Positions 13,263 through 31,181 of a stretch of 35,500 nucleotides of DNA are shown in pieces. The DNA is from Candidatus Atribacteria bacterium ADurb.Bin276. Its GTDB lineage: Bacteria; Atribacterota; Atribacteria; Atribacterales; Atribacteraceae. Within the stretch, counting starts at the first letter, position 1, and each line of letters opens with the position of its first letter. Location of the stretch: NCBI GenBank assembly GCA_002069605.1, contig MWBQ01000118.1:1-35500 (forward strand), written 5' to 3'. The notes beneath the pieces are model-generated. The model was given only the letters and a program-made list of their open reading frames with translations. It was not told the DNA's origin and made no database searches. A program made the position numbers and the translations under genes.

Positions 13263-14180
13263 TTATTTTTTTGAATTTTTATATTTTTCTATAAATTCCT
13301 GAACTTGTGCCAAATTGGGAATTCCCGTACGCCCTCCTAATTTAGTACACTTTAGGGCAGCAACAGCATTAGCAAAACGAGCCGTGTAAAGAATATCCCA
13401 ATCTTTCAAAAGGCCAAATACAAAGGCACCATGAAAAACATCACCACAACCGGTTGTATCGACTACGTTAACCTGGTAACCTGGAACATGAAAGGTTTCT
13501 TTTCCGACTTTTCCCATACAGCCCTTTTCTCCCTGGGTTAAAATAACCGCCTTTGGACCTAAAGCGGCAACTTTTTCTAAAGCTATATTTGGATTGGTAG
13601 GATGAAAATTTTTAGCAAAGGTTTCTGAACCGATTAAAACATCAGTTAAAGTCACTAACTTTTCTCTTTGCTCATCCCAGTTATCAATATCCAGGACAAT
13701 TCTTCTTCCTTCAGTATGTTCGCGAAAGTATCGGGCGGCATCATAAGCGGTTTCCGGTTCATGAGCATCTAAATGAAGTATTTCCCCTTGACAAAGAAAA
13801 TCGGGATCGATTTCATCAAGCTTTAAAGGAGTTAGATTTTTATACCAAAAAATAGTTCTTTTCCCGCTTTTTTGATCAATGATACAAAAGGCAGTCAGGC
13901 TCATTTTTCCCTTTTCCTTAACGAGTTGGCTAATATCTACTCCTTCCTGAAGAAATTCCTTAGAGAGAAATTCTCCTGACTCATCATCACCCACTTTCCC
14001 AACGAAAGAGACTTTTGCGCCCAAACGAGCTAAGGTCACCAGAGCAGTAGCCACCTCTCCACCACCCTGACGAAGAAAATCTTTTAGGCGGATCCGTTGA
14101 TCAAGCTGAGGGTAGGATTCAACAATTCCTAAGTTATCAAGAGCGACATGCCCAACTCCTACTACATCAAATTGCAGCAT
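13263..14180 (-). CDS. PfkB-family carbohydrate kinase (operon B)
   Basis: This 305-residue protein is a ribokinase/PfkB-family kinase. The N-terminal VVGVGHVALDN and the GGGEVATALVTLARLGA substrate-binding region fit the family. The C-terminal signature DTTGCGDVFHGAF holds the catalytic base Asp247 and the anion hole. It would phosphorylate a sugar or sugar-like alcohol with ATP in the cytoplasm. The DTTGCGDVFHGAF form is seen in several sugar kinases of transporter operons, but the substrate cannot be fixed from it. As the last gene of operon B, 74 bp after a URO-D-like gene, it probably acts on the solute imported by that transporter. Confidence 0.88.
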   Translation of the reverse strand: MLQFDVVGVGHVALDNLGIVESYPQLDQRIRLKDFLRQGGGEVATALVTLARLGAKVSFVGKVGDDESGEFLSKEFLQEGVDISQLVKEKGKMSLTAFCIIDQKSGKRTIFWYKNLTPLKLDEIDPDFLCQGEILHLDAHEPETAYDAARYFREHTEGRRIVLDIDNWDEQREKLVTLTDVLIGSETFAKNFHPTNPNIALEKVAALGPKAVILTQGEKGCMGKVGKETFHVPGYQVNVVDTTGCGDVFHGAFVFGLLKDWDILYTARFANAVAALKCTKLGGRTGIPNLAQVQEFIEKYKNSKK

Positions 14181-14254
14181 TTTTACTCTCCTTCAATTAA
14201 ACAATGCAATTTCTTCTTCTGAACATATTTTTCCTTAGAATTGATAACTAAACT

Positions 14255-15397
14255 TTATTTTAAATGATTGTGTTTTTGAATAGATTGTTCAATCCGCTTC
14301 CCAATACCGGGATCCCGGCGAGTATCTATATATTGACCTTCTTGGAGAGATAGAGCCGGAGCAATATATGAAATCACTATGAGCCCTTGCGAGTCCATTT
14401 TTTGAAATAATTGTTGATAATAATGATCAATTCGATTATCCTCGAGATTAAAATCTCCGACCATATAAACCAGCTTTTTCTCGGCAAGCGCGTGACGAAG
14501 GCGAGCGGCTTCATCAAGATGGTCTAAGTTGAGGTTATGAATAGCTTTCAACCCACGGGTTGATAGAAAGTTTTCAATATGTTGGTTTGCACTACCACAA
14601 AAGTGAATAACCCCTCCCCCAAAAGCTTCAAGAACCTGACTATTATAAGGAACCACAAATTCCCGATAAAGATCTTTTCCAAAAATAACCGAATCGTCAT
14701 CTGAAATCCAAACCCCCCCGATGCCTCCAGGGATTTTTACACCTAATACATAGGCATCATCATCCCGGCTTTGACCAGCAATCTCTTTTTGAACACGAAT
14801 CCATTCAATCAGAGAGTCAGTAACCAGTTGCATTAAATCATGAATCATCTCGGGATGATCATGCATCCAATAAATCATTTTATCGTATCCGATAATCTGC
14901 AAAGCGGTTGTCAATGGTCCCTGGCAATCGGTAACCCCTACTGGAAAATCAGTGTTTTCTCGCATGTATCGGATTGTGTTAAGAGCCCGAGGCATGAGCC
15001 CATCTTTCAAAGGATTCGGCTTTTTTAAATCTCGAACTTGCTGAATGTCTTGAATAGTTGGCAAATCAACAGCTGGATCCATTTTGTCCAGGAATTTAAC
15101 ATCTATACCAAATCCTGAAGCAAGAACGCCGGTTCCAAACCAAGGCATTAAAAAAGGAATATAAACATCTTGATATTCCCGCATATGGATTTCGATTTTT
15201 TGAGCTTGGTAATTGGTCATAATTGAAGGATCTTCGCTACAATATCCTTCAGGAATTTCCTCCTGTAAAGCGCCAAATAACCAATAGTTTACGTCGTAAA
15301 TAATATAAGGTGACTCCTGGTTTTTAAATTGAAACGCTTCTCTGATGCGTTTTTCTGAACGAAAATTTCTCTCTCGATATCTTTCTGAGGTATTCAT
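14255..15397 (-). CDS. Uroporphyrinogen decarboxylase (URO-D) superfamily protein 1
   Basis: This 380-residue protein is of the URO-D/MtaA-like superfamily, a TIM barrel. It has DCQGPLTTALQIIG (about 157-170) and an HFCGS motif (His265, Cys267), the zinc-site pattern of methylcobamide:coenzyme-M methyltransferase-like members. It is not HemE: the typical N-terminal heme-pathway residues are absent and the gene sits inside a sugar transport operon. Members with this H-x-C motif can move methyl groups through corrinoid proteins, but many are uncharacterised. It lies between the permease (41 bp upstream) and the PfkB kinase (74 bp downstream), and a second family member lies at 19240-20505. Its real reaction is unknown. 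Confidence 0.8.
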   Translation of the reverse strand: MNTSERYRERNFRSEKRIREAFQFKNQESPYIIYDVNYWLFGALQEEIPEGYCSEDPSIMTNYQAQKIEIHMREYQDVYIPFLMPWFGTGVLASGFGIDVKFLDKMDPAVDLPTIQDIQQVRDLKKPNPLKDGLMPRALNTIRYMRENTDFPVGVTDCQGPLTTALQIIGYDKMIYWMHDHPEMIHDLMQLVTDSLIEWIRVQKEIAGQSRDDDAYVLGVKIPGGIGGVWISDDDSVIFGKDLYREFVVPYNSQVLEAFGGGVIHFCGSANQHIENFLSTRGLKAIHNLNLDHLDEAARLRHALAEKKLVYMVGDFNLEDNRIDHYYQQLFQKMDSQGLIVISYIAPALSLQEGQYIDTRRDPGIGKRIEQSIQKHNHLK

Positions 15398-15438
15398 TCA
15401 TATTCTCCTTGAATTAAGCTATTTTTCTATAAGGTTTT

Positions 15439-16419
15439 TTATAAAAGGCCTTTTTTCTTTTTGCTTAAAGTATCAATCATCACTGCAACTAAAAGAGTTG
15501 TTCCGATAACAAAAGTGTTCCAGTAAACATCTACCCCTAAAAGAGTCAGAGAATTCTGAATCAAAGCCATTAAAAGGGTTCCTAAAAAAGCACCGGCAAC
15601 GGTACCCTCTCCACCCTGTAAACTGGCACCACCAATAATAACTGCCGAAATAACCCTGAGCTCCAAACCGGTACCCGCCGATACCGACGCCGCCCCCAAA
15701 CGAGCGGTCATAATGATACCAGCAAACGCTGCTAATCCACCGGCAAGGGCATAATTAAATACTTTCATTTTACTAACATTAATTCCCGATAACAAAGCCG
15801 CTCTTTCATTACCACCAATATAATAATTTTGTCGAAAAAATTGGGATTTTCGCAGTAAAAAATCTCCTATAATAACCAAAATAATGGCGATTAGAATTGG
15901 ATACTGAACATTAAAAAACTTACCTTGACCTAACATTTTAAAAGAATCAGGTAGACCGGTAATATTTTTCCCTTTGGTTATCACCAACAAAAGACCTCGA
16001 ACTAAATTAAGCATTCCTAAAGTCGTAATGAATGGATTAATCCCAATTTTTGATATAATCAAGCCATTACCCATACCAATTAAAACTCCTAAGCCTATCC
16101 CTACCAAAATTGCTAAAATAACTGGTATTCCCCTGGCCATCAGCATTGCTGCCATTGCCCCGGTAAAACCAACGGTTGAACCTACAGACATATCGAAACC
16201 GCCTGAAACCATTAAAACTGTCATTCCAATAGCAATGATACTTTCGATCGATAGGCTTAAAAGAGTAGCCAGGATATTTCCTGAAGTAAAGAATATAGGT
16301 GACAATATAGTCATAAGGATTACAGCACCAATAATAATAAATAAAATCATGAATTCATGAATTTCAGTTAAGCTTCGCCATAGGTTTCGATGGTTTTTGG
16401 TTTGCTCTAGTTGACTCAT
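15439..16419 (-). CDS. Sugar ABC transporter permease (operon B)
   Basis: This 326-residue RbsC-like permease is the only one in operon B, so the channel is likely a homodimer, unlike in operon A. Visible landmarks are VSGGFDMSVGSTVGF (about 69-83), IGGNERAALLSGINVSKMK as the ATPase-coupling loop and VISAVIIGGASLQGGEG. The N-terminal stretch of about 25 residues before the first helix is polar and cytoplasmic. An AAGGAGAAATCG ribosome site precedes the ATG. The ATPase gene ends 24 bp upstream. Confidence 0.92.
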   Translation of the reverse strand: MSQLEQTKNHRNLWRSLTEIHEFMILFIIIGAVILMTILSPIFFTSGNILATLLSLSIESIIAIGMTVLMVSGGFDMSVGSTVGFTGAMAAMLMARGIPVILAILVGIGLGVLIGMGNGLIISKIGINPFITTLGMLNLVRGLLLVITKGKNITGLPDSFKMLGQGKFFNVQYPILIAIILVIIGDFLLRKSQFFRQNYYIGGNERAALLSGINVSKMKVFNYALAGGLAAFAGIIMTARLGAASVSAGTGLELRVISAVIIGGASLQGGEGTVAGAFLGTLLMALIQNSLTLLGVDVYWNTFVIGTTLLVAVMIDTLSKKKKGLL

Positions 16420-16443
16420 TCGATTTCTCCTTTATGGGTTTTC

Positions 16444-17958
16444 TCAAGTTAGCATGTTCACTTTTCCTACACCTGTAGCACAAGTAATGACTCTTTCTTC
16501 GGTTGCTTCATTTTGATTAAATTCTCCAACAATACGTCCACCCCTCATTACCAGAATGCGATCACTTACACCTAAAACTTCTGGTAAATCAGATGATATC
16601 ATAACAATTCCAACACCTGATAAGGTTAAGTCTCGCATAATTTTATAGATTTCTCTTCGGGCTCCTACATCGACTCCTCGGGTCGGTTCATCAACAATTA
16701 AGACTTTCGGATTAATTCCTACCCACATAGATAACAATACTTTCTGCTGATTACCACCTGATAGGTTTCTAACTTTTTGAAAAATTGTTGGAGTAATAAT
16801 TTTAAATTGTTTTCGTGATTGTTCAGCAAAAGAAGTTATTTTACTTTCATCAAGAATATTCATACCCTTTATAAAACGCTTCATATCTGGTGCTATCAAG
16901 TCTTCACGATAACTCATTTTTAAAAAAAGCCCTTGTTGTTTTCTATCCTCTGTCAAATAGGCAATTCCTTCTTGAATGGCATCACCGGGAGAATGTATTG
17001 ACAAAACCTTCCCATTAAGTCTTATACTTCCCTCAGAAAATGGCTCTAAGCCAAATATTGCTCTGGCTAACTCTGTCCTTCCTGCTCCAACTAACCCAGC
17101 TATTCCTAATATTTCTCCTCTTTTCAAAGAAAAAGATATTTCAGTGAAGACCCCATCTTGAGAGAGATTTTCAACCTGAAAATATTCCTTACCGACTTTT
17201 GAATTCCGATCTCCATACATATTTTGAATTTCTCGACCTACCATGAGCTTTACAACCTGTTCTTCATTTACTTCAGAAATGTTCCGAGTATCAATATATT
17301 TTCCATCTCTAAAAATAGTTACCCGATCAGCGATTTCAAATATTTCTTGAAGGTGATGAGAAATATAAACAAAAGATACTCCTTTTTCTTTTAAAAACTG
17401 AATATTCTTAAAAAGAAGTTTGGTTTCTACCTGGGTTAGTGAAGAAGTTGGCTCATCCAGTATGAGTACTTTTGGGTTACAGGAAATTGCTTTAAGAATT
17501 TCAACGACTTGCTGCTCAGCAACCGACAATTCTTTTACTGGAGTACGAGGATCAATCACCAAATCAAAATATTTTAATATTTCTAATGTTTTTTGATATA
17601 AAAGACTCCAATCAACCAGTTTCATACGCTTAAGAGGCTGACGATTGGCAAAAATATTTTCAGCGATTGAAAGGTTTTGTACTAAACTCAATTCCTGATA
17701 AACAACGCTTATCCCCTCCTGAGATGCATGGTAAGGATTTTGTAATTTAACTTTCTTACCCTCGACGAATACATCTCCACTATCAGGTCTATACACTCCT
17801 CCTAAGATGTGCATTAAAGTGCTTTTCCCAGCTCCATTTTCACCCACCAGAGCATGGACTTCACCCTTCTGTAATTGAAATTGAACTCCATCAAGAGCTC
17901 GAACTCCAGGAAAGTTTTTTACGATATCTTGCGCTTCTAAAATTATTGATTTATCCAT
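16444..17958 (-). CDS. Sugar ABC transporter ATP-binding protein, RbsA type (operon B)
   Basis: This 504-residue protein is a tandem-domain sugar ATPase. Domain 1 has Walker A GENGAGKST, signature LSVAEQQ and Walker B ILDEPTSS. Domain 2 has a lysine-less Walker A (GLVGAGRTE), signature LSGGNQQK and an intact Walker B VDEPTRGVDV, unlike the degenerate one in operon A. A longer frame begins at a TTG at 17970, but that codon overlaps the GGAGG ribosome site, so the ATG at 17958 is the true start. The gene lies downstream of the 16-bp hairpin at 18029-18070 and 24 bp upstream of the permease. Confidence 0.93.
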   Translation of the reverse strand: MDKSIILEAQDIVKNFPGVRALDGVQFQLQKGEVHALVGENGAGKSTLMHILGGVYRPDSGDVFVEGKKVKLQNPYHASQEGISVVYQELSLVQNLSIAENIFANRQPLKRMKLVDWSLLYQKTLEILKYFDLVIDPRTPVKELSVAEQQVVEILKAISCNPKVLILDEPTSSLTQVETKLLFKNIQFLKEKGVSFVYISHHLQEIFEIADRVTIFRDGKYIDTRNISEVNEEQVVKLMVGREIQNMYGDRNSKVGKEYFQVENLSQDGVFTEISFSLKRGEILGIAGLVGAGRTELARAIFGLEPFSEGSIRLNGKVLSIHSPGDAIQEGIAYLTEDRKQQGLFLKMSYREDLIAPDMKRFIKGMNILDESKITSFAEQSRKQFKIITPTIFQKVRNLSGGNQQKVLLSMWVGINPKVLIVDEPTRGVDVGARREIYKIMRDLTLSGVGIVMISSDLPEVLGVSDRILVMRGGRIVGEFNQNEATEERVITCATGVGKVNMLT

Positions 17959-18028
17959 GAATTCCTCCAATAACGATGAGTATCACTAATATTTCTACAC
18001 TCCCCCTCAATTGAATAAATAACCAATT

Positions 18029-18070
18029 ATCACAAGGGAGCGTGATAATGGATACACGCTCCCTTGTGAT
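18029..18070 (-). promoter_or_regulatory. Long perfect hairpin between binding-protein and ATPase genes (operon B)
   Basis: ATCACAAGGGAGCGTG (18029-18044) pairs perfectly over 16 bp with 18055-18070 around a 10-nt loop. On the minus strand the sequence after the stem is TTGGTTATTTATTC, without a proper U-run. It sits 22 bp after the binding-protein stop codon and about 70 bp before the ATPase start. Position and shape match the 8655-8696 hairpin of operon A, but the sequences are unrelated, which argues for function rather than a shared repeat. Its likely role is mRNA 3'-end protection or partial attenuation. Confidence 0.7.
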
Positions 18071-18092
18071 TACTAATTTATCTTTGGTTATA

Positions 18093-19064
18093 TTAATCTC
18101 TCATAAAATATTCATAATTCGTTTCATCTACAATAACAACACCAGTATCTATGACAGCTGGCGTCCCTGAGATTTTAGCTTTTGCATTATCGCTGGAAAT
18201 TGGAATGTCGTAATTATAAAGGTTAAATAGAATTTGAGTACCATAAAATGGCATTAAAGCAGTCTGCTGAGCAACCGATGCAGAGATTATCCCGTCTTTA
18301 ATGTATTCTAAAACATCGTTTCCTCTATCCATAGAAACAATCTTAACCTGACCCGCTTTCCCAGCTTCGTTAACCGCGGTAGCAGCCCCAGCCCCACCAG
18401 CAGCTTCAACACAACCAATACCAGCTAAGTCTGGGTACTTTTGAAGAAGAGCTGCAGCAGCTTGAGCAGCAACCGTTGGGTCCGACTGAGTATCAGCAAT
18501 CTGTACTATCTCAATATCAGGATATTGAGCTAAAGCATCTTTATATCCAACAATTCGCTCTTCAAGGTTCGATTGACCCGGTCTGGTCATAATTGCAACT
18601 TTCCCTTTTTCGCCCACGAGAGAAGCTAGCTTTTTGCCTCCTTCAAAACCTGCTTGATAATTGCCCGTTCCAACAAAGGCAATTCTTTTTGAACCTGGCA
18701 AATCGGCATCAAGTGTAACAACCGGGATACCAGCATCAATAGCTTTATCAACAATTGCGTCGAGCGAAGGCTCAAAACCAACCACCAATATCCCCTGGGG
18801 TTTTTTGGCAATGGATTGTTCAAATGCGGTGATCATGGCTGCCATATCAAAATCAGCCGGTCCAACATACTCGGTTTTAACTCCCAAATATTTTCCAGCT
18901 AATTCCATTCCCAATTTATGATCATAAAAATAATCCAAGCTTCCTAGTGCTGAAACTTCAATATAAAGTTGTTCAGAAATTGGTAATTTTTCTTCAGCAA
19001 ACGCTGGAATCATAAAACTGAAAATACCTACTAATATCATGATAAAAAGCATCATCTTTTTCAT
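18093..19064 (-). CDS. Sugar ABC transporter substrate-binding protein, RbsB-like (operon B)
   Basis: This 323-residue periplasmic binding protein of the ribose class has a signal peptide (MKKMMLFIMILVG core, cleavage after MIPAFA). Features of the fold include FEQSIAKKPQGILVVGFEPS, VVTLDADLPGS, AFVGTGNYQAGFEGGKKLA and SMDRGNDVLEYIKDG, close to RbsB-type proteins. An in-frame GTG four codons upstream overlaps the GAGGTGG ribosome site, so the ATG at 19064 is chosen. It is the first gene of operon B, with a promoter candidate at 19143-19171, an orphan SD at 19125-19133 and a hairpin after the stop. The ligand is not identifiable from sequence alone. Confidence 0.92.
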   Translation of the reverse strand: MKKMMLFIMILVGIFSFMIPAFAEEKLPISEQLYIEVSALGSLDYFYDHKLGMELAGKYLGVKTEYVGPADFDMAAMITAFEQSIAKKPQGILVVGFEPSLDAIVDKAIDAGIPVVTLDADLPGSKRIAFVGTGNYQAGFEGGKKLASLVGEKGKVAIMTRPGQSNLEERIVGYKDALAQYPDIEIVQIADTQSDPTVAAQAAAALLQKYPDLAGIGCVEAAGGAGAATAVNEAGKAGQVKIVSMDRGNDVLEYIKDGIISASVAQQTALMPFYGTQILFNLYNYDIPISSDNAKAKISGTPAVIDTGVVIVDETNYEYFMRD

Positions 19065-19124
19065 GTTCTTTTCCACCTCGTTTTATTTTTTTTTAAAAAC
19101 TGAACATCTTAAATTATTCGGATT

Positions 19125-19133
19125 CCACCTCCC
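19125..19133 (-). promoter_or_regulatory. Orphan Shine-Dalgarno sequence in leader of operon B
   Basis: On the minus strand this reads GGGAGGTGG, a seven-base perfect SD core (GGAGGTG) with no start codon at a usable distance; the next ATG, 18 nt on, opens a four-codon frame. It falls just downstream of the predicted transcription start (about 19136) and 60 nt before the real start codon. The position parallels 7511-7520 in operon A. An mRNA-stabilising ribosome-binding role (STAB-SD type) is inferred. Confidence 0.4.
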
Positions 19134-19142
19134 AACTCTATT

Positions 19143-19171
19143 TTTATCATGATAATAAATAATTATATCAA
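19143..19171 (-). promoter_or_regulatory. Predicted promoter of transport operon B, overlapped by a palindrome
   Basis: On the minus strand, TTGATA (19166-19171) and GATAAA (19143-19148) are 17 bp apart. A perfect 12-bp palindrome, TTATCATGATAA (19144-19155), covers the -10 element, the usual place for a repressor operator. Transcription would start near 19136, leaving a leader of about 70 nt. The DNA is AT-rich, so the promoter call is moderate. No regulator gene adjoins it. Confidence 0.45.
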
Positions 19172-19239
19172 TTTATTAATTAACTATTTAAATTATAAGA
19201 TGAGAATATTTCTTATTGAATTTTAATACCATTTAATTT

Positions 19240-20505
19240 TTAACGGTTTTCTTGAAGGGTCTCAAAAAAAGCGAGTAAATTTTCTACTGGAATTTTTGCT
19301 TGAATATTATGGACATTAGCAAAAACAAACCCTCCATTAGGTTTGAAGGTATTTATCAAATATCTGACTTCTTGACGAACATCCTCAGGAGAACCAAAAG
19401 GAAGAGTTGATTGAGGATTCACTCCTCCTCCCCAAAATGTAAAGTCTGAACCAAAATGTTCTTTAAGTTCTTTCGGGTCCATTTTGGCTGCAGAAACTTG
19501 CACTGGATTAAGAATATCAAAACCGGCTTCTTTTAAATCAGGAAGAAGATCAAATACTGAGCCACAGGTATGGATAAATACTTTCCATTGAGTATTTTGG
19601 TGTATCCATTCATTCATTGCTTTGTGATAAGGTTTAAAGAGTTCTCGATAAAGAGCTGGTGAAATAAATGGACAATTCTGGGATCCAAAATCAGTCCCCG
19701 AAAGGACGATAACCTGAATTCTCTCACCAACAGCTTCATACATTAATTTAAGATTCTTTAAACCAATTTCAGTCATCTGAGAAAATACCTCTTTTAAAAA
19801 ATCCTTACGAGTCATGAGGGAAACATACCATTCTTCAACGTCTCTAATTCCTTGAGGATTTTTCATGCCTGGTCCAGGGACCAAAGCAATATCACCTAAG
19901 TTAGTTCCTGGCACTCCACCAAAAACCACCGCACGGTCAGTTTCTTCGTAAAGTCTTTTTGCCTCTTTTTCATAGCAAGCCAGGTCTTCATCGCCCATAA
20001 TCGAATATTCTTCAACTTGGTCTTCTACTTTTAGCTTCGATTCATCAACAATTGGCTTTTGCCGTATAATAGAATCATGATAAAACCCGTCTTTTGGCAT
20101 TCTCATAGAAGCCGGAACCGAACGATCGCCTTCAGGATATTGAAGGATGTCACCATTCGATTCCGGCATAATATTAAACTTTTCCGGAACCAAAACCGGT
20201 GTCCCATCAAAAAAAGTCCATGGTTTCCAGTTTTCATTTTTAAAACCAAAGAAATTTTTTATAGATGGCAATGGAACCGTATCAATTCCCAATACATCCC
20301 GGAGATCATCGTCTACTTCCCCTAGCATTTGAAAGGGATCATAGACTTTCACTGGTTCATTATCCTTAATTAATCCCAAGGATACTTTGAGCTTATGAAG
20401 ACTACTTACATGAATACCACTGATGAGCGTTGATCCCAAATCCAAAGGAACTTTGTCTGGAGTTTGGTGATTGATTGCGGCTAAAACTCTCTCTCGAGAA
20501 GTCAT
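19240..20505 (-). CDS. Uroporphyrinogen decarboxylase (URO-D) superfamily protein 2
   Basis: This 421-residue protein opens with MTSRERVLAAINHQTPDKVP, the typical start of URO-D-like methyltransferase-related proteins. It carries the HTCGS motif (His312, Cys314) expected for zinc binding. A glycine-rich strand FWGGGVNPQSTLPFG and a final ANVHNIQAKIPVEN loop fit the barrel's C-terminal half. It is longer than the copy at 14255-15397 and clearly diverged from it. AAGGAGGATAATTAAT precedes the ATG. The acyl-ACP-reductase-like gene lies 44 bp upstream; operon B's own promoter region lies downstream. As with its paralogue, the substrate is unknown, and a heme-pathway role is unlikely. Confidence 0.82.
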   Translation of the reverse strand: MTSRERVLAAINHQTPDKVPLDLGSTLISGIHVSSLHKLKVSLGLIKDNEPVKVYDPFQMLGEVDDDLRDVLGIDTVPLPSIKNFFGFKNENWKPWTFFDGTPVLVPEKFNIMPESNGDILQYPEGDRSVPASMRMPKDGFYHDSIIRQKPIVDESKLKVEDQVEEYSIMGDEDLACYEKEAKRLYEETDRAVVFGGVPGTNLGDIALVPGPGMKNPQGIRDVEEWYVSLMTRKDFLKEVFSQMTEIGLKNLKLMYEAVGERIQVIVLSGTDFGSQNCPFISPALYRELFKPYHKAMNEWIHQNTQWKVFIHTCGSVFDLLPDLKEAGFDILNPVQVSAAKMDPKELKEHFGSDFTFWGGGVNPQSTLPFGSPEDVRQEVRYLINTFKPNGGFVFANVHNIQAKIPVENLLAFFETLQENR

Positions 20506-20549: not shown

Positions 20550-21614
20550 TTAAATAGCTTTTTTAATCATCTCGATTTCTTCATCGGTTAATTCTTTATC
20601 AAAGCTACGAATTCCTGATACCTTAAAACCATGTTTTAAGGCAAGATTACTTATTTCTTTCACATGTTCAACTTGGACTTCTTTACCAAGAGTATAATCT
20701 TCAAATCGACCTTCCAAAGTTAGGATCATCGTTTCTGACATACAAGCATAAGCCTTGCCCGGTGGATATCCAAAATTCATTCCAAAATCAGGCTTGCCAG
20801 GCACATCGACAATACCACCTTCAATAACTAAAATATCCTTTCGGGACTGCATAATCTCTTTAGCTACGTTTCTGGGCCTTGACACATCACAAACAACAGC
20901 TCCTCGTTCGATCCAATGACTTTGAATTATGGTTTCTATGGCCGAGGTGACGGTTAAAATAATCCGACACCCTTTAATTCCTTGTTCAATATTTGTAAAT
21001 CCTTTTACTGGATAAGGTGAAAACTGCTCAACTTCCCGTTGTACATTCTTCACCTTTTCCTGATCGCGCCCTACAATCCTAACTTTCTTTTTTTCTTGCG
21101 CTAAAATGAGGGCACAAGCTCTTCCAATTGAGCCAGTAGCACCAACTATTGCATACTCTTCACTATTAAAGTCTAATGTCATCTTTTGGGCTGCAATCAT
21201 AGTAGCTTCCAGAGCCGTTGCCACGGTATAACTATTACCGGTGGTAACGGCAATAGTTAAGCCTTTTTTGGGAGTAATTCCTCCATCACCAGCTACTGAT
21301 GTAAAAGCACCTAAACCAATAATCTTAGCTCCGAGCTTTTCCGCCAATAAACCACATTTTTGAATTTGCTTCGAAACAAAAGTAAATGGGTATTCAATGA
21401 GAACCCTTGAAGTCATAGGAAGGCCCACAAACCACCCTTTGATTTCTTTCCCAGTCGCCTGTGAGCGAACTCCGGTAACATGGGATAAAACAAACGGCGA
21501 TATGTGAGAGGCGAGGTATTCAACCGACCGGTTAGGCAAAACACGGAGTATTTTTTTATGATCTTTGATGTCTTGAGCATCCATTGCATGGATTATAAAG
21601 GCAAAGCTATCCAC
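20550..21614 (-). CDS. Acyl-ACP reductase-like protein (shikimate-dehydrogenase-like Rossmann fold)
   Basis: This 354-residue protein resembles cyanobacterial long-chain acyl-ACP reductase (AAR). Shared stretches are GAFTSV, TTGNSYT, the NADPH loop VGATGSIG (157-164), EGGIVDVPG and AYACMSETM. Cys291 in the last lines up with the catalytic Cys294 of Synechococcus AAR, which carries the acyl thioester. AAR reduces acyl-ACP to fatty aldehyde with NADPH. The GTG at 21614 is chosen as start because AAGGTGA lies just upstream and the protein then begins VDSFAFIIHAMD, as I recall homologues doing; a TTG at 21653 gives a longer frame. Substrate and product are not proven. Neighbours are a URO-D-like gene downstream and, across a repeat-filled gap, an SRPBCC protein and an aminotransferase. 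Confidence 0.72.
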   Translation of the reverse strand: MDSFAFIIHAMDAQDIKDHKKILRVLPNRSVEYLASHISPFVLSHVTGVRSQATGKEIKGWFVGLPMTSRVLIEYPFTFVSKQIQKCGLLAEKLGAKIIGLGAFTSVAGDGGITPKKGLTIAVTTGNSYTVATALEATMIAAQKMTLDFNSEEYAIVGATGSIGRACALILAQEKKKVRIVGRDQEKVKNVQREVEQFSPYPVKGFTNIEQGIKGCRIILTVTSAIETIIQSHWIERGAVVCDVSRPRNVAKEIMQSRKDILVIEGGIVDVPGKPDFGMNFGYPPGKAYACMSETMILTLEGRFEDYTLGKEVQVEHVKEISNLALKHGFKVSGIRSFDKELTDEEIEMIKKAI

Positions 21615-21820
21615 GAAATTCACCTTCAATCTTTCAATACAGTGATAAGCCAAAAACCTAAAAAAGTGAACGAAAAAAATAAAATGCTAATATCTTCTTG
21701 CTGATTCACTTTTAGAACCTGTAAAATATATTTCATTAAAACCTTTTTTTTCTTCTTCTAATTCCCTTTGCCTTAATTTCCTTGTAACCTGTCCTGAAAA
21801 TATAACAATGTTTAAAAAAT
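21615..21820. other. Intergenic stretch upstream of the acyl-ACP-reductase-like gene
   Basis: No gene is seen. AAAAGTGAA (about 21662-21670) and TTCACTTTT (about 21705-21713) form a 9-bp inverted repeat about 35 bp apart upstream of the gene start, a possible regulatory site or stem. The motif CCTGAAAAT at 21793-21801 marks the left edge of the dispersed repeat that follows. Confidence 0.45.
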
Positions 21821-21926
21821 CCGTCATCCTGTGCGGTGCTTTCCCGCGTGAGGATCTCATCTTTTAATTATTTAAAAAAGAATACTAAATGAGATTGCTA
21901 CGTCGCTTTACTTCTCGCAATGACGG
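21821..21926 (+). repeat. MITE-like palindromic element, copy at 21.8 kb
   Basis: This 106-bp element starts with CCGTCATCCTG and ends with CGCAATGACGG, so its ends are inverted (CCGTCAT at each end). The interior has GTGAGGATCTCATC and AAATGAGATTGC, which can pair through ATCTCAT and ATGAGAT. A short variable hairpin lies between CCTGT and GTGAGG. A second copy is at 26228-26342. Elements with a GTCATCCTGAG...CAATGACGG frame are scattered through many bacterial genomes. There is no coding capacity. Confidence 0.75.
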
Positions 21927-22191
21927 ATTTAGGTAACTATTTTCATCCTCATCTGGTGCTGCCAGGCAGCATGAAGGTCTATCCTGAAAATACCGGAATG
22001 TTTTTTAAGGTAATTCTTTTAGAGCAACCAATCAGGATCTCATTCTGGGCTTTCACCCTCATCCTCTCCTTCTCCCGTCAAGGGTGAAGGAACTATAAAT
22101 TCTTTTATTCTTTCCTTCACTTTCACTCAATATAATGAATTAGTTTAAGATTATATTCTATTTACCTTACCTTTTCCTCACCAAACCGGAT
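21927..22191 (+). repeat. Dispersed repeat module A, copy 2, and adjoining non-coding DNA
   Basis: Positions 21940-22048 match the reverse complement of positions 1-115. They include TTTTCATCCTCATCTGG, a 7-bp hairpin TGCTGCC/GGCAGCA (21957-21971), GGTCTATCCTGAAAATACCGG and CTCATTCTGG. In copy 1 the hairpin is TGCCA/TGGCA with a different loop, so pairing is kept while sequence changes. Beyond 22049 a pyrimidine-rich stretch ends in TCAAGGGTGAAGG, then AT-rich DNA runs to the SRPBCC stop codon. No gene is supported. Confidence 0.65.
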
Positions 22192-22632
22192 TCAGGCTTG
22201 ATCGATCATTTGTTTTAAGGCTTTTAGCATTGCTTGAGCATTCTCTAACATCTTCTTTTTAAGAAAAGTATTGATCAAAGCCCCCACCAGTGGAAGCCCT
22301 AAGTCATATTCAATCTCAAGCTCTACTTTTGTCTCCTTATCGGATAATGGGATAAACTTCCACATTCCTTGGTAAACCTTAAAATCTCCTTCTAATATAA
22401 AGAATCGACATTCTTTATTGGCTTCATCCCATATATCTCGCTCAGTCCACTTTACTTCTCTTCCTTGAAAGCTGCCTTTCCAAAAACTATCAACTTCGTT
22501 CATATTTTTTTTAAGAATTCTTACTTCTTGAAGATCTGGAAGAAATTTAGCTAATTGCTCGATATTCTGAGCCTCGAGAAAAACATTTTCGACTGATTGT
22601 TGAATGGTAATAACATCATTTACTTTTCCCAT
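22192..22632 (-). CDS. SRPBCC / polyketide cyclase-like (Coq10/RatA-type) protein
   Basis: This 146-residue protein has the helix-grip (START/SRPBCC) pattern: an N-terminal strand INTO a helix with VENVFLEAQNIEQLAKFLPDL, central strands with WTERDIWDEANKECRFFILEGDF, and a C-terminal amphipathic helix (FLKKKMLENAQAMLKALKQM). Such proteins hold hydrophobic ligands such as lipids or quinones in a deep pocket. The start lies five bases after the aminotransferase stop codon, with its GGAGAA ribosome site inside that gene's end, so the pair is translationally coupled. A ligand-carrier or cyclase role next to the aminotransferase and the AAR-like enzyme is inferred. No catalytic residues can be assigned. 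Confidence 0.75.
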   Translation of the reverse strand: MGKVNDVITIQQSVENVFLEAQNIEQLAKFLPDLQEVRILKKNMNEVDSFWKGSFQGREVKWTERDIWDEANKECRFFILEGDFKVYQGMWKFIPLSDKETKVELEIEYDLGLPLVGALINTFLKKKMLENAQAMLKALKQMIDQA

Positions 22633-22637
22633 GGTCT

Positions 22638-23900
22638 TTATTCTCCCTCTATCTCATTTAACAATACTCGCACTGAGACCAAGGATTCGTTTAATCTGGA
22701 TAAAACTGTCTCTAACTCTTCATAAGATATAGTCAGTGGTGGCTCAATACGAATCACAGTTGGGTTATTAAGAGTATAGGCTACTAAAACACGACGCTGA
22801 GCCATCTCCATGGCTATCAAAGACGCAATATCGGAATCTCCAAATTGGATACCAATCAACAAACCAATTCCTCTTATTTCCTGAATCATTCCCTCTGACT
22901 CAGCTTGAATCTCACCAAGCCGTTGCAAGACTTTCTCACCTTTAATCCTGGTTAATTCGGGTATATTTTCATCTTGAAGGATTTTTAAGGTTTCTATACC
23001 AGCAACACAGCTAAGGGGATTCCCCCCTAATGTTGAAGAATGAATAAAGGGATTCTCTTCAAATACTTTCCAAATCTCGGCAGTACTGATGAATGCTCCA
23101 ATGGGGAGCACGCCACCTCCCAAGCCCTTAGCAAGAGTCATTATGTCTGGCACAACATCAAAATGCTCACAAGCAAACATCTTTCCAGTCCGACCCAATC
23201 CGGTTTGGATTTCATCCAAAATAAGCAAGGCTCCTTGTTTTTCACAAATCGATTTAACTTGCTTTAAATAATCGGGAGAGGGAATAATGATACCTCCTTC
23301 TCCTTGTACTGGCTCTAAAATAACCGCGGCGGTTTCTTTGTCTACCAATTGTTTCAAGGCATCGATATCATTAAATGGAACGTGATATACTTCTGGTAGA
23401 CAAGGCAAAAAAGGCTTTTTATAAACTTCGCGCCCCGATAGACTTAATGAACCCATAGTTTTGCCGTGAAAGCTATTCTCGGCAGAAATTAGTTTTTCAC
23501 GGCCGGTATAAAAACGAGCCAGCTTTAAAGCACCCTCCACAGCTTCTGTTCCACTGTTACCAAAAAAAGAATATTGAAGATTGCCTGGTGTTATGCGGGC
23601 TAACATTTCAGCTAAATCGGCTTGATGTTTATTAAACAAGGTACGAGTAGAAAGAGGAAGTCGTTCTAATTGTTCCTTTACGGCCTGAACAACTCGGGGG
23701 TGGTTTCTTCCAACATTGAAAACTCCAAATCCACCTAAACAATCAATATATTCATTGCCAAATACATCCCATACCTTTGAACCGGCACTGGTCCACTCTA
23801 CAGTATCAAGGTGGGCAAACTTATAATATCGAGCTAAACCAGGATTAATATATTTAGCATATTTCTCAATCGTTTCTTCCACAATCTTTTTTTCGTCCAC
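22638..23900 (-). CDS. Class III PLP-dependent aminotransferase (putrescine aminotransferase-like)
   Basis: This 420-residue fold-type I aminotransferase resembles E. coli PatA/YgjG along much of its length: [16 protein letters not shown] (114-129), [44 protein letters not shown] and [15 protein letters not shown]. The Schiff-base lysine is Lys258 in TLAKGLGGG and the cofactor-binding aspartate is Asp229. It would exchange an amino group between an omega-amine and a keto acid, or run in reverse and aminate an aldehyde. The start is a GTG with GGAGGG eight bases upstream. It is coupled to the SRPBCC gene. Putrescine use is only one possibility; no polyamine genes adjoin it, and an aldehyde from the nearby reductase is an alternative substrate. 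Confidence 0.88.
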
Positions 23901-23958
23901 TACTATTACCCTCCGGGTATTTTTTTTAAATTACTCAACATTTTTTAAATGAAATTAT

Positions 23959-24864
23959 CTATAAATAAAGCAGCCGTGGCTGAATTTTTAAGGTATTCAT
24001 TAGTTGTAAATATTCCTCAGGTAAGATCTTATCAGGATGTTTCTCGAGTATTGAAACAAAAATTGCTTGAAGAACATTCGCACCAAAAGAACGTCCATTC
24101 ATCTCAGGAGTAGTTGTAACAAGTATTTTTACTCCAAATTTTCGAAGAGTTTCGATATCATTATTTGTGACCGTGTTGGTAATAATAATCTTCCCTTTCA
24201 TATCGTCCGGCATAAATCGATTGATATATAAAAAGTCTCCAGCTACGATATCGGCTCTTTTAAATAGATGAAGAGATCGAGTAACTCGTGTTTCTTGACT
24301 TTTTCCGGTTGGATATAGAACTTTCAAAGGAAGACGCCTAAGCACCGGCATCATTATAATGGATAGAAAGCGAAGGGTAGAAAGCCGAGTTAGGGGAATG
24401 GGTATTCCTAACGCAAATGGCATATCTCCTATCAAAAGCCGACAACCCTGCTGAGAAAGTCCCTCTGCTAAACCATAACGATCCATCCCACTCATAAAAA
24501 GTGCGGTTTTCCCTTGTAAATCTAATTTTTCCTTTTCGACTAAAATCTGTGGAACCTTTCTTTCCCAAGTTTCTTTGAGTTCTCCACCATCAACAATTGG
24601 TGTTTTTTCCAAAACTGAAACCATTTTAGCAATATCAACCACTTGATATTTATATCGGCCAGCACGGAGGTAAAGGTCAGCACCCCCCAAACCAAAGGCA
24701 TCAACTTTACCATCCAATTCTCTTAAAACTTGCATAAACTTTTTTTTATCACCATCAACGCCTATTCTTTTAATATTAATTCTAAAATCCATTAATTCGA
24801 TTTCGGCTTGGTGATTGCGAAGTGAAGACCCTAAACTAACACTTACGATTGTTTTACTTTTCAC
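23959..24864 (-). CDS. Uncharacterised protein resembling 'quinate 5-dehydrogenase'-annotated family
   Basis: This protein of about 302 residues begins KSKTIVSVSLGSSLRNHQ, with GKVDAFGLGGADLYL near residue 55 and KTPIVDGGELK near 90. A Rossmann-like second half contains GKTALFMSGMDRYGLAEGLSQQG, IIITNTVTNNDIETL and ILVTTTPEMNGRSFGANVLQAI. I recall similar proteins labelled quinate 5-dehydrogenase in anaerobic Firmicutes, but I see no firm catalytic motif, so the label should be treated as a name only. Several GTG codons could start it (24873, 24867, 24864). The last has GGTGAT upstream and fits the conserved beginning. Its 5' end overlaps the bactofilin gene, implying coupling. Function is unknown. 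Confidence 0.6.
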   Translation of the reverse strand: MKSKTIVSVSLGSSLRNHQAEIELMDFRINIKRIGVDGDKKKFMQVLRELDGKVDAFGLGGADLYLRAGRYKYQVVDIAKMVSVLEKTPIVDGGELKETWERKVPQILVEKEKLDLQGKTALFMSGMDRYGLAEGLSQQGCRLLIGDMPFALGIPIPLTRLSTLRFLSIIMMPVLRRLPLKVLYPTGKSQETRVTRSLHLFKRADIVAGDFLYINRFMPDDMKGKIIITNTVTNNDIETLRKFGVKILVTTTPEMNGRSFGANVLQAIFVSILEKHPDKILPEEYLQLMNTLKIQPRLLYL

Positions 24865-25213
24865 CACTATCACCAGTTTGGGGGAATGTCAATCCACCCT
24901 CAAACGTTGTTCCAGGTTCTATAGCAATTCCATTTGACATAATTATTCCCGTTATTCGGCATGAACTACGACAAATAACCTTTTCCGTTCGAGTAAAACC
25001 TGCTAAGGTTCCCCAAATTTCTAAGTTTTTTGCCTGGATAAAAGCTTTTGACTGTCCATGTCGGGTAATAATGACATTCATCGAATCAATAGATCCACGA
25101 AACTCGCCCTGAATCATGACCGTTCCCTCACCTTGATAATGACCATCCAGACGAGTTTGATCACCCAATATTGCAATATCTTTTACATTTTCATGACTTT
25201 TGATTAAGTTCAT
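24854..25213 (-). CDS. Bactofilin-family cytoskeletal protein
   Basis: This 119-residue protein matches the bactofilin (DUF583) fold. A single right-handed beta-helix is indicated by short repeats such as ILGDQTRLDGHYQGEGTVMI, GEFRGSIDSMNVIIT, KNLEIWGTLAGFT and CRITGIIMSNGIAI. Bactofilins polymerise without nucleotide into filaments that organise the cell envelope. The terminal tails are short and polar. The start overlaps the end of the pantothenate kinase gene by 23 bp and the end overlaps the quinate-dehydrogenase-like gene, so three genes share one compact transcript. A link between its role and its neighbours is not evident. Confidence 0.82.
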   Translation of the reverse strand: MNLIKSHENVKDIAILGDQTRLDGHYQGEGTVMIQGEFRGSIDSMNVIITRHGQSKAFIQAKNLEIWGTLAGFTRTEKVICRSSCRITGIIMSNGIAIEPGTTFEGGLTFPQTGDSGEK

Positions 25214-25970
25214 TAATAATTCTCAAACCTTCAAGGGTAAGTGTTGGATTAAAAAAATCAATAAAATCACAATAACTATGTAGAAATGTTCCCCATCCTC
25301 CAGTAGCAACAACTTGTGCTTTTGGAGCAAATTCTTTTTTCATATTCATAACAATTTCTCTACATAACCCGATGTACCCATAAAAAATGCCTGAATGCAT
25401 TGCCTCAACCGTATTACGCCCAATACATTTATCTGGGATCTCAACATCAATTCGAGGTAAACGGGCAGTTTTTTCATAGAGAGCTTCTTGTGAAATTCCA
25501 ATTCCTGGAGCAATTGATCCCCCCAAATATTCTCGGCTGGCATTAATAGCACAAAAAGTGGTTGCTGTTCCAAAATCGATAATCACTAAATCACCACCAT
25601 AGAGATGTGCAGCTGCTACAGCATTAACAATTCGATCGGCACCAGTTTCTTTTGGCTCCGCTCTTATTGATAAACCAGTACGAACTCCTGGTCCAATTAC
25701 CATTAATATATTTATCCATTTCTTTTCAAATAGTTCTCGAAGGGTATTGAGGACGGGAGGGACCACACAGGAAATTGCCACTTGATTTATATTTTTTTTC
25801 TCAATGCCTTGATCAGTTATGAGTTCCTTTAGAATATATCCCCATTCATCACTGGTTCGACGTGATGAAGTCGAAACTCTCCAGTCAGCAAGAAGTTTTT
25901 CATAATGAAAAACTCCAAAAGTGGTATGGGTATTTCCAACGTCTATGGTTAAAAGCATATTTTTATTCAA
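25191..25970 (-). CDS. coaX: Type III pantothenate kinase
   Basis: This 259-residue protein is a CoaX-type pantothenate kinase, which phosphorylates pantothenate in the first step of coenzyme A synthesis. The ATP-binding phosphate-1 motif LTIDVGNTHTTFGV is at the N-terminus. GPGVRTGL, the ADRIVNAVAA segment, DFGTATTFCAI and GGSIAPGIGIS are all family hallmarks in the right order. The frame opens with a TTG at 25970, with AAGGTGG four bases upstream. An ATG at 25958 would give the commoner MLLTIDVGNT start but is 16 bases from that site. It heads the overlapping coaX, bactofilin and quinate-dehydrogenase-like genes. Confidence 0.94.
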   Translation of the reverse strand: MNKNMLLTIDVGNTHTTFGVFHYEKLLADWRVSTSSRRTSDEWGYILKELITDQGIEKKNINQVAISCVVPPVLNTLRELFEKKWINILMVIGPGVRTGLSIRAEPKETGADRIVNAVAAAHLYGGDLVIIDFGTATTFCAINASREYLGGSIAPGIGISQEALYEKTARLPRIDVEIPDKCIGRNTVEAMHSGIFYGYIGLCREIVMNMKKEFAPKAQVVATGGWGTFLHSYCDFIDFFNPTLTLEGLRIINELNQKS

Positions 25971-26227: not shown

Positions 26228-26342
26228 CGTCATCCTGAGGCTTTGTATTCAGAAGCCGTGAGGATCTCATCCTTTAATTATTTTAAAAAAAATTTGCTAA
26301 ATGAGATTGCCACGTCGCACAAAACGCTCCTCGCAATGACGG
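26228..26342 (+). repeat. MITE-like palindromic element, copy at 26.2 kb
   Basis: This 115-bp copy of the element at 21821-21926 runs from CGTCATCCTGAGG to CGCAATGACGG, with the same GTGAGGATCTCATC and AAATGAGATTGC interior. The hairpin between CCTGA and GTGAGG is GGCTT/AAGCC with a 9-nt loop, whereas the other copy has GCGG/CCGC. Pairing is therefore preserved although sequence and length differ. An open frame across this copy (26243-26530) is not a gene. Confidence 0.75.
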
Positions 26343-26410
26343 TTTTAGATAGCTTTTTCATCCCCATCTGGCACAATCGAAGTGGTTTGGAAGTCTATCC
26401 TGTTTTGGTA
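26343..26410 (+). repeat. Dispersed repeat module A, partial copy 3
   Basis: TTTTCATCCCCATCTGGCAC and GGAAGTCTATCCTG correspond to the start of module A at 21940-21990 and to the reverse complement of about 55-115. The copy breaks off near 26403-26410. It follows directly on the MITE-like element, the same order as at 21821-22048. It ends about 25 bp from the stop codon of the ECF transporter gene. Confidence 0.55.

Positions 26411-29244: not shown

Positions 29245-31181
<1,937 letters not shown>

Follow-up and report, generated by a model that had tools for sequence, protein, structure and literature searches.

Candidate genes for a fatty-amine branch of membrane lipid synthesis in Atribacterota

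An acyl-thioester reductase-like protein and its three neighbours

We analysed a stretch of 35,500 nucleotides (the window) at the start of contig MWBQ01000118.1 from Candidatus Atribacteria bacterium ADurb.Bin276, in which four genes had been proposed from the sequence alone to form a fatty-aldehyde or fatty-amine pathway. All four were found on the minus strand where the original prediction had placed them, and they encode an AAR-like protein (P1, 20550-21653, 367 amino acids as listed), an SRPBCC protein (P2, 22192-22632, 146 amino acids), a class III aminotransferase (P3, 22638-23900, 420 amino acids) and a protein of an uncharacterised family (P4, 23959-24873, 304 amino acids). Read along the minus strand, the gene order is CoaX, bactofilin, P4, P3, P2, a gap of 540 bp and P1.

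P1 matched the profile of acyl-acyl carrier protein (acyl-ACP) reductase AAR (TIGR04058, E 2.8e-26) and the N-terminal half of the PigE profile (NF053554, E 8.7e-54), and its solved relatives in the PDB are the PigE-type structure 4ppm and the AAR structures 6jzq/6jzu. Neither equivalog cut-off was reached: P1 scored 92.6 vs 449.7 bits for TIGR04058, and for PigE, whose counterparts are separate genes here, P1 and P3 scored 183 and 409 of 850 bits. When modelled by AlphaFold with Anaerolineae homologues (pLDDT 83.8), P1 is predicted to have the AAR fold; the first Foldseek match of this model was the stearyl- and NADPH-bound AAR 6jzy, with TM scores of 0.73-0.79 over the AAR entries. Cys304 of P1 aligns with Cys294 of AAR and Cys296 of PigE, and both this cysteine and the NAD(P)-binding loop GATGxIG (GATGSIG at residues 171-177 of P1) vary little or not at all across alignments of 95, 13 and 28 homologues, so that the two features that had been singled out in the original prediction, the Cys294 equivalent and the NADPH loop, were both confirmed. 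Judged by fold, cysteine and GxxGxxG loop, P1 is a predicted member of the acyl-ACP/thioester reductase superfamily (AAR, the N-terminal part of PigE and the C-terminal part of TamH).

The true start of P1 is probably a GTG near 21614, as suggested by the alignment of homologues. Recoding of an in-frame TAG in the P1 gene of one genus was considered and rejected, since the TAG lies upstream of the true start and the profile match there is stop-free. A heme-related role (GluTR/GSAM-like) was likewise dismissed, with the hemA profile giving only 39 bits. The decarbonylase ADO (PF11266), which had been predicted to be missing, was not found in the host genome, while it was detected in the positive control Synechococcus; therefore, an aldehyde formed by P1 should go elsewhere. 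In Anaerolineae (L036-L080), P1 occurs at 45-49% identity in another conserved set, consisting of a hexapeptide-repeat protein, P1, a response regulator with a GGDEF domain, a large sensor-like protein and often an alpha/beta hydrolase.

P3 matched Aminotran_3 (PF00202, 2.9e-109), and its closest solved relative is PatA (4uox, 2.4e-127), with PigE at 6.8e-88 (4ppm). The lysine that binds pyridoxal 5'-phosphate (PLP), Lys258, is conserved. By its sequence, P3 is thus classed as a class III aminotransferase with a PLP lysine, PatA-like as predicted, and it does not reach the PatA equivalog cut-off (523 of 612 bits). P2, a putative lipid carrier, matched Polyketide_cyc (PF03364, 1.2e-17; 64.8 bits vs a gathering score of 23.4) and is of the START/COQ10 helix-grip type, again in agreement with its earlier description; its sole close solved relative is TTHA0849 (2d4r, 8.9e-23).

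P4 had no match in Pfam, NCBIfam or the PDB, a profile search of the PDB gave chance matches only, and comparison with P1 by hhalign revealed no homology. Neither P4 nor any of its 34 homologues matched a dehydrogenase family of Pfam or NCBIfam. The quinate dehydrogenase-like label that P4 had been given thus found no supporting match; the Pfam Shikimate_DH match falls on P1. Some Bacillota proteins annotated as 'quinate 5-dehydrogenase' may be P4-like. Among the 34 homologues, 32 residues are invariant. A Rossmann-like stretch can be seen by eye in P4, in which a recognisable dinucleotide motif is not present, and the AlphaFold model made from four sequences was unusable (pLDDT 37.6). No P4 was found in viral contigs and plasmids. 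One genome (G379) has a tandem pair of P4 genes directly before P1 (L251:8060-9857).

Conservation, linkage and fusion of the four genes

The order P4-P3-P2-P1 is contiguous in 14 of 25 Atribacterales genomes, the window included, and P3-P2-P1 occurs in six more, in which P4 lies elsewhere or past the contig end; CoaX and bactofilin stand upstream in most of these loci. Since the order is kept across Atribacterales, the four-gene arrangement is not due to chance. In one member of this order (G009), a single aminotransferase-reductase protein of 879 amino acids directly after P4 replaces P3-P2-P1. In the reductase tree, the closest companions of this fusion are those from two genomes of other phyla (99/99) and not its Atribacterales neighbours, so that an equivalent fused enzyme has displaced the split set while P4 was retained. 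The fusion gene is followed by an aldehyde dehydrogenase gene (PF00171; L101:3-1394).

To follow the genes beyond Atribacterota, we used 336 genomes of other phyla. P1 was present in all 30 P4-bearing genomes and in 10 of 306 P4-less ones (30/0/10/296; Fisher p 1.4e-34), and P3 orthologues were present in 22/30 and 3/306, respectively (22/8/3/303; p 7e-25), where the p values are indicative only, because the counts take in related genomes (30 genomes, 19 families). Of the 151 genomes in the phylum of G053, 143 contain P4 and 142 contain P1, and P4 stands alongside P1 in 24 of the best 30 P1 loci. Outside Atribacterota, eight genomes from six families encode a fusion with P4 N-terminal to P1; the seven fusions that were placed in the tree form a single clade. 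P2, too, stands next to P3 or P1 elsewhere: the P3-P2 pair recurs side by side, with its order unchanged, in 9/30 loci from six families, and P2 lies beside P1 in G315 and G289. P4 adjoins P3 in G498, and all four genes share one locus in G326, as P3-P2 and then P1-P4. An aminotransferase is fused to a P1-type reductase in seven genomes (G009 and six further). The original prediction would have been given up if the four families rarely co-occurred elsewhere; the survey gave the opposite result, with P4-P1, P3-P2, P2-P1, P4-P3 and P3-P1 linkages or fusions recurring in several lineages.

These data bear on the possibility that P3 is a usual polyamine aminotransferase of the PatA type, that P1 acts on a non-lipid acyl thioester and that the genes are neighbours without a common pathway. 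Although P3 is 49% identical to PatA of Escherichia coli, we regard this explanation as improbable in view of the conserved order, the pairwise linkages in several lineages, the aminotransferase-reductase fusions and the lipid-binding-type P2 in between.

The genes flanking the set are CoaX, a type III pantothenate kinase (25191-25970, minus strand; Pan_kinase 9.1e-69), and a bactofilin (24854-25213, minus strand; Bactofilin 1.2e-16) that is kept between CoaX and P4 in Atribacterales. CoaX also adjoins P4 or P1 in other lineages and belongs to the kept gene order, but not necessarily to the pathway. The gap between P2 and P1 is 540 bp here vs about 10-250 bp in relatives. A dispersed repeat of ~100 bases containing GTCATTGCGAG lies in this gap (21847-21942) and again at 26257-26358, near an ECF-transporter gene. 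The downstream URO-D/MtaA-like gene (19240-20505) was rejected as a member of the set, as it adjoins P1 only within the genus; in one other genus it is on the same contig. The region 13263-20505 holds an ABC sugar-type transporter between two URO-D/MtaA-type proteins, with a PfkB kinase after it, and 29245-30870 encodes a Cpn60/TCP-1 family protein that scored only 266 bits and may be a divergent chaperonin.

A putative route to long-chain amines and the role of P4

We consider it probable that these genes provide membrane lipid synthesis with a branch for fatty amines. In the proposed route, P1 would load the acyl group of acyl-ACP (or acyl-CoA) on Cys304 and use NAD(P)H to reduce it to a long-chain aldehyde, which the PLP enzyme P3 would aminate to a long-chain primary amine with L-glutamate or another amino acid as the donor. 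P2 may hold the hydrophobic aldehyde or amine between the enzymes or at the membrane, and P4 would act on the amine or aid its assembly into a polar lipid, e.g. the N-glyceroyl-alkylamine of Thermus-type phosphoglycolipids. The conversion of an acyl thioester via the aldehyde to a long-chain amine appears to be the best reading, because PigE and TamH have been characterised as thioester reductase-transaminases and one half of PigE matches P1, the other P3. In lysate, PigE reduced the thioester and aminated the aldehyde (PMC8341465), and TamH with its partner TamA converted a C12 acid via acyl-ACP to the C12 amine (PMC9594044). By analogy with these homologues, the predicted sequence of aldehyde and then amine is well supported, and a fatty amine is the likely product.

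The original prediction had named an alkylamine, an amino-lipid or an ether-lipid precursor as fitting products. An ether lipid is less likely than an alkylamine, because the aminotransferase is fused to the reductase or travels with it. In the corresponding alternative, the aldehyde made by P1 feeds ether lipids, plasmalogens or fatty alcohols, P4 is an aldehyde or ketone reductase, and P3 is a separate aminotransferase. This would fit with the strict tie of P4 to P1 and their fusion, with the lack of P3 in some genomes that have both P1 and P4, with the Rossmann-like stretch, and with the position of P4 beside an oxoamine synthase in another Atribacterota lineage, as the ketone product of that enzyme would need a reductase. 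Nevertheless, P3 co-occurs strongly with P1 and P4, aminotransferase and P1-type reductase are fused in the seven genomes mentioned, and P4 has neither a recognisable dinucleotide motif nor a match to a dehydrogenase family, so we judge this alternative to be distinctly unlikely.

The taxonomic distribution may point to a specific class of lipids. Phosphoglycolipids that contain an N-glyceroyl alkylamine have been on record for Deinococcus since 1985. A lipid of this type is the main phospholipid of Thermus and Meiothermus (PMC3398001, PMC3035268); N-glyceroyl alkylamines are listed for Moorella thermoacetica in a 2026 paper (PMC13274423), which for such lipids in Bacillota cites a 2025 paper. 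No genes for the lipid amine were named in the literature searched. Thermus is represented among our genomes by G218, whose subunit II of the ba3 oxidase is almost the same as that of T. thermophilus (1EHK). In the Thermus phylum, P4 and P1 were each found in 61/61 genomes, and P3 was present in the Thermus genomes tested, at 48% identity, so that the candidate genes are present in a lineage that makes the lipid; the Thermus relative of P2 is TTHA0849. In this phylum, P1 forms the C-terminal part of a longer protein whose N-terminal part is PlsY (PF02660, 3.8e-29; two proteins checked by Pfam). PlsY is the glycerol-3-phosphate acyltransferase family and usually has a GSGNxGATN-like stretch; by eye, this stretch seems to be missing in the fusions L291:7365-9026 and L293:6895-8571, and it is doubtful whether the fused PlsY part has acyltransferase activity. 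From the distribution, a membrane lipid of the glyceroyl-alkylamine type as the end product is quite conceivable, with the balance tipped slightly against it. Production of a specialised metabolite with a tambjamine- or prodigiosin-like tail instead of a membrane lipid would be in line with the origin of both PigE and TamH from such clusters, but we regard it as highly improbable for a set that is near-universal in whole phyla, stands beside the housekeeping genes CoaX, GreA and LysS, is fused to PlsY in Thermus and has no biosynthetic cluster genes nearby.

What does P4 contribute? No P4 has been described alongside PigE or TamH, and the sampled genomes whose P1 match resembles cyanobacterial AAR lack P4; reduction or transamination as such should therefore proceed without it. 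In a second Atribacterota lineage (L212-L231), an alpha-oxoamine synthase gene follows P4 in 17/20 loci, in the slot held by P1 elsewhere (P4-P1-GreA-LysS); this synthase scores below every equivalog cut-off. A gene for a helix-turn-helix (HTH)-like protein precedes P4 in 20/20 of these loci, giving the order HTH-P4-synthase-GreA-LysS. Both partners of P4 would convert an acyl thioester to a long-chain product that either is an amine already or is easily turned into one, and from this common chemistry the simplest shared role of P4 would be a step on that product, such as the attachment of an amide or headgroup. As a specific assignment, amide or headgroup assembly is tentative and rather unlikely, and carbonyl reductase is the main alternative. 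Possible, though less likely than not, is the wider proposal that P4 is a new enzyme family building the N-glyceroyl (or a similar) amide or headgroup and that P1-P3-P2-P4 is an unrecognised core alkylamine-lipid pathway across several phyla, including those of Thermus and Atribacterota.

Several observations speak against a fatty-amine branch, in addition to the relatedness of the genomes counted above. The second Atribacterota lineage holds P4 beside the oxoamine synthase without P1 or P3, and in Anaerolineae neither P4 nor P3 lies near P1. P3 is as near to E. coli PatA (49%) as to its own orthologues outside the phylum (44-55%), and a polyamine substrate is therefore possible. Three genomes of the Thermus phylum that were tested (G566, G590 and G585) have only ArgD-like aminotransferases. 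Purified PigE alone showed no thioester reduction (PMC8341465), and for lipids, the paper on Atribacter gives fatty acid methyl esters only.

For the amine of known lipids, the set offers four conserved candidate genes, one of them from a wholly uncharacterised family, which makes this question testable by knockout in the tractable T. thermophilus. If the proposal is true, alkylamine lipids could be predicted from genomes, also for uncultured lineages. Atribacterota are an example of these; in one of their cultured members, an internal membrane of an unusual kind seems to be present.

Comparison with known systems

The statement in the original prediction that no described system with this set was known needs correction, as PigE and TamH carry reductase and aminotransferase in one protein. 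PigE from the 2-methyl-3-n-amylpyrrole (MAP) pathway of prodigiosin synthesis in Serratia combines an N-terminal AAR-like reductase, similar to P1, with a C-terminal class III aminotransferase, similar to P3. It differs in being one fused protein that is encoded in a secondary-metabolite cluster and uses a 3-acetyloctanoyl thioester, whereas the set here consists of separate genes, includes P2 and P4 and scores far below the PigE cut-off. TamH from tambjamine YP1 synthesis in Pseudoalteromonas also unites transaminase and thioester reductase and leads from acyl-ACP via the fatty aldehyde to the fatty amine, but its domain order is the reverse of that of PigE, and it, too, belongs to secondary metabolism; the fusion that stands in place of the split set in G009 is TamH-like. 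The PigE/TamH type of chemistry is thus already known, and what looks new is a split set with P2 and P4 in apparent primary metabolism.

Cyanobacterial AAR (6jzq, 6jzy) shares the fold, the catalytic cysteine and the NADPH loop with P1 at 22-23% identity, but its partner is ADO and its product an alkane. PatA (4uox) resembles P3 in identity, PLP lysine and fold family; the context of P3, however, is a fatty-acyl-type reductase and a lipid-binding-type protein and not polyamine catabolism. Finally, the N-glyceroyl alkylamine phosphoglycolipids of Thermus, Meiothermus, Deinococcus and some Bacillota are major lipids that need a long-chain amine. What is compared here is a lipid and not a gene set, and for Atribacterota it is a prediction; Thermus, which makes the lipid, has P1, P3, P4 and a relative of P2.

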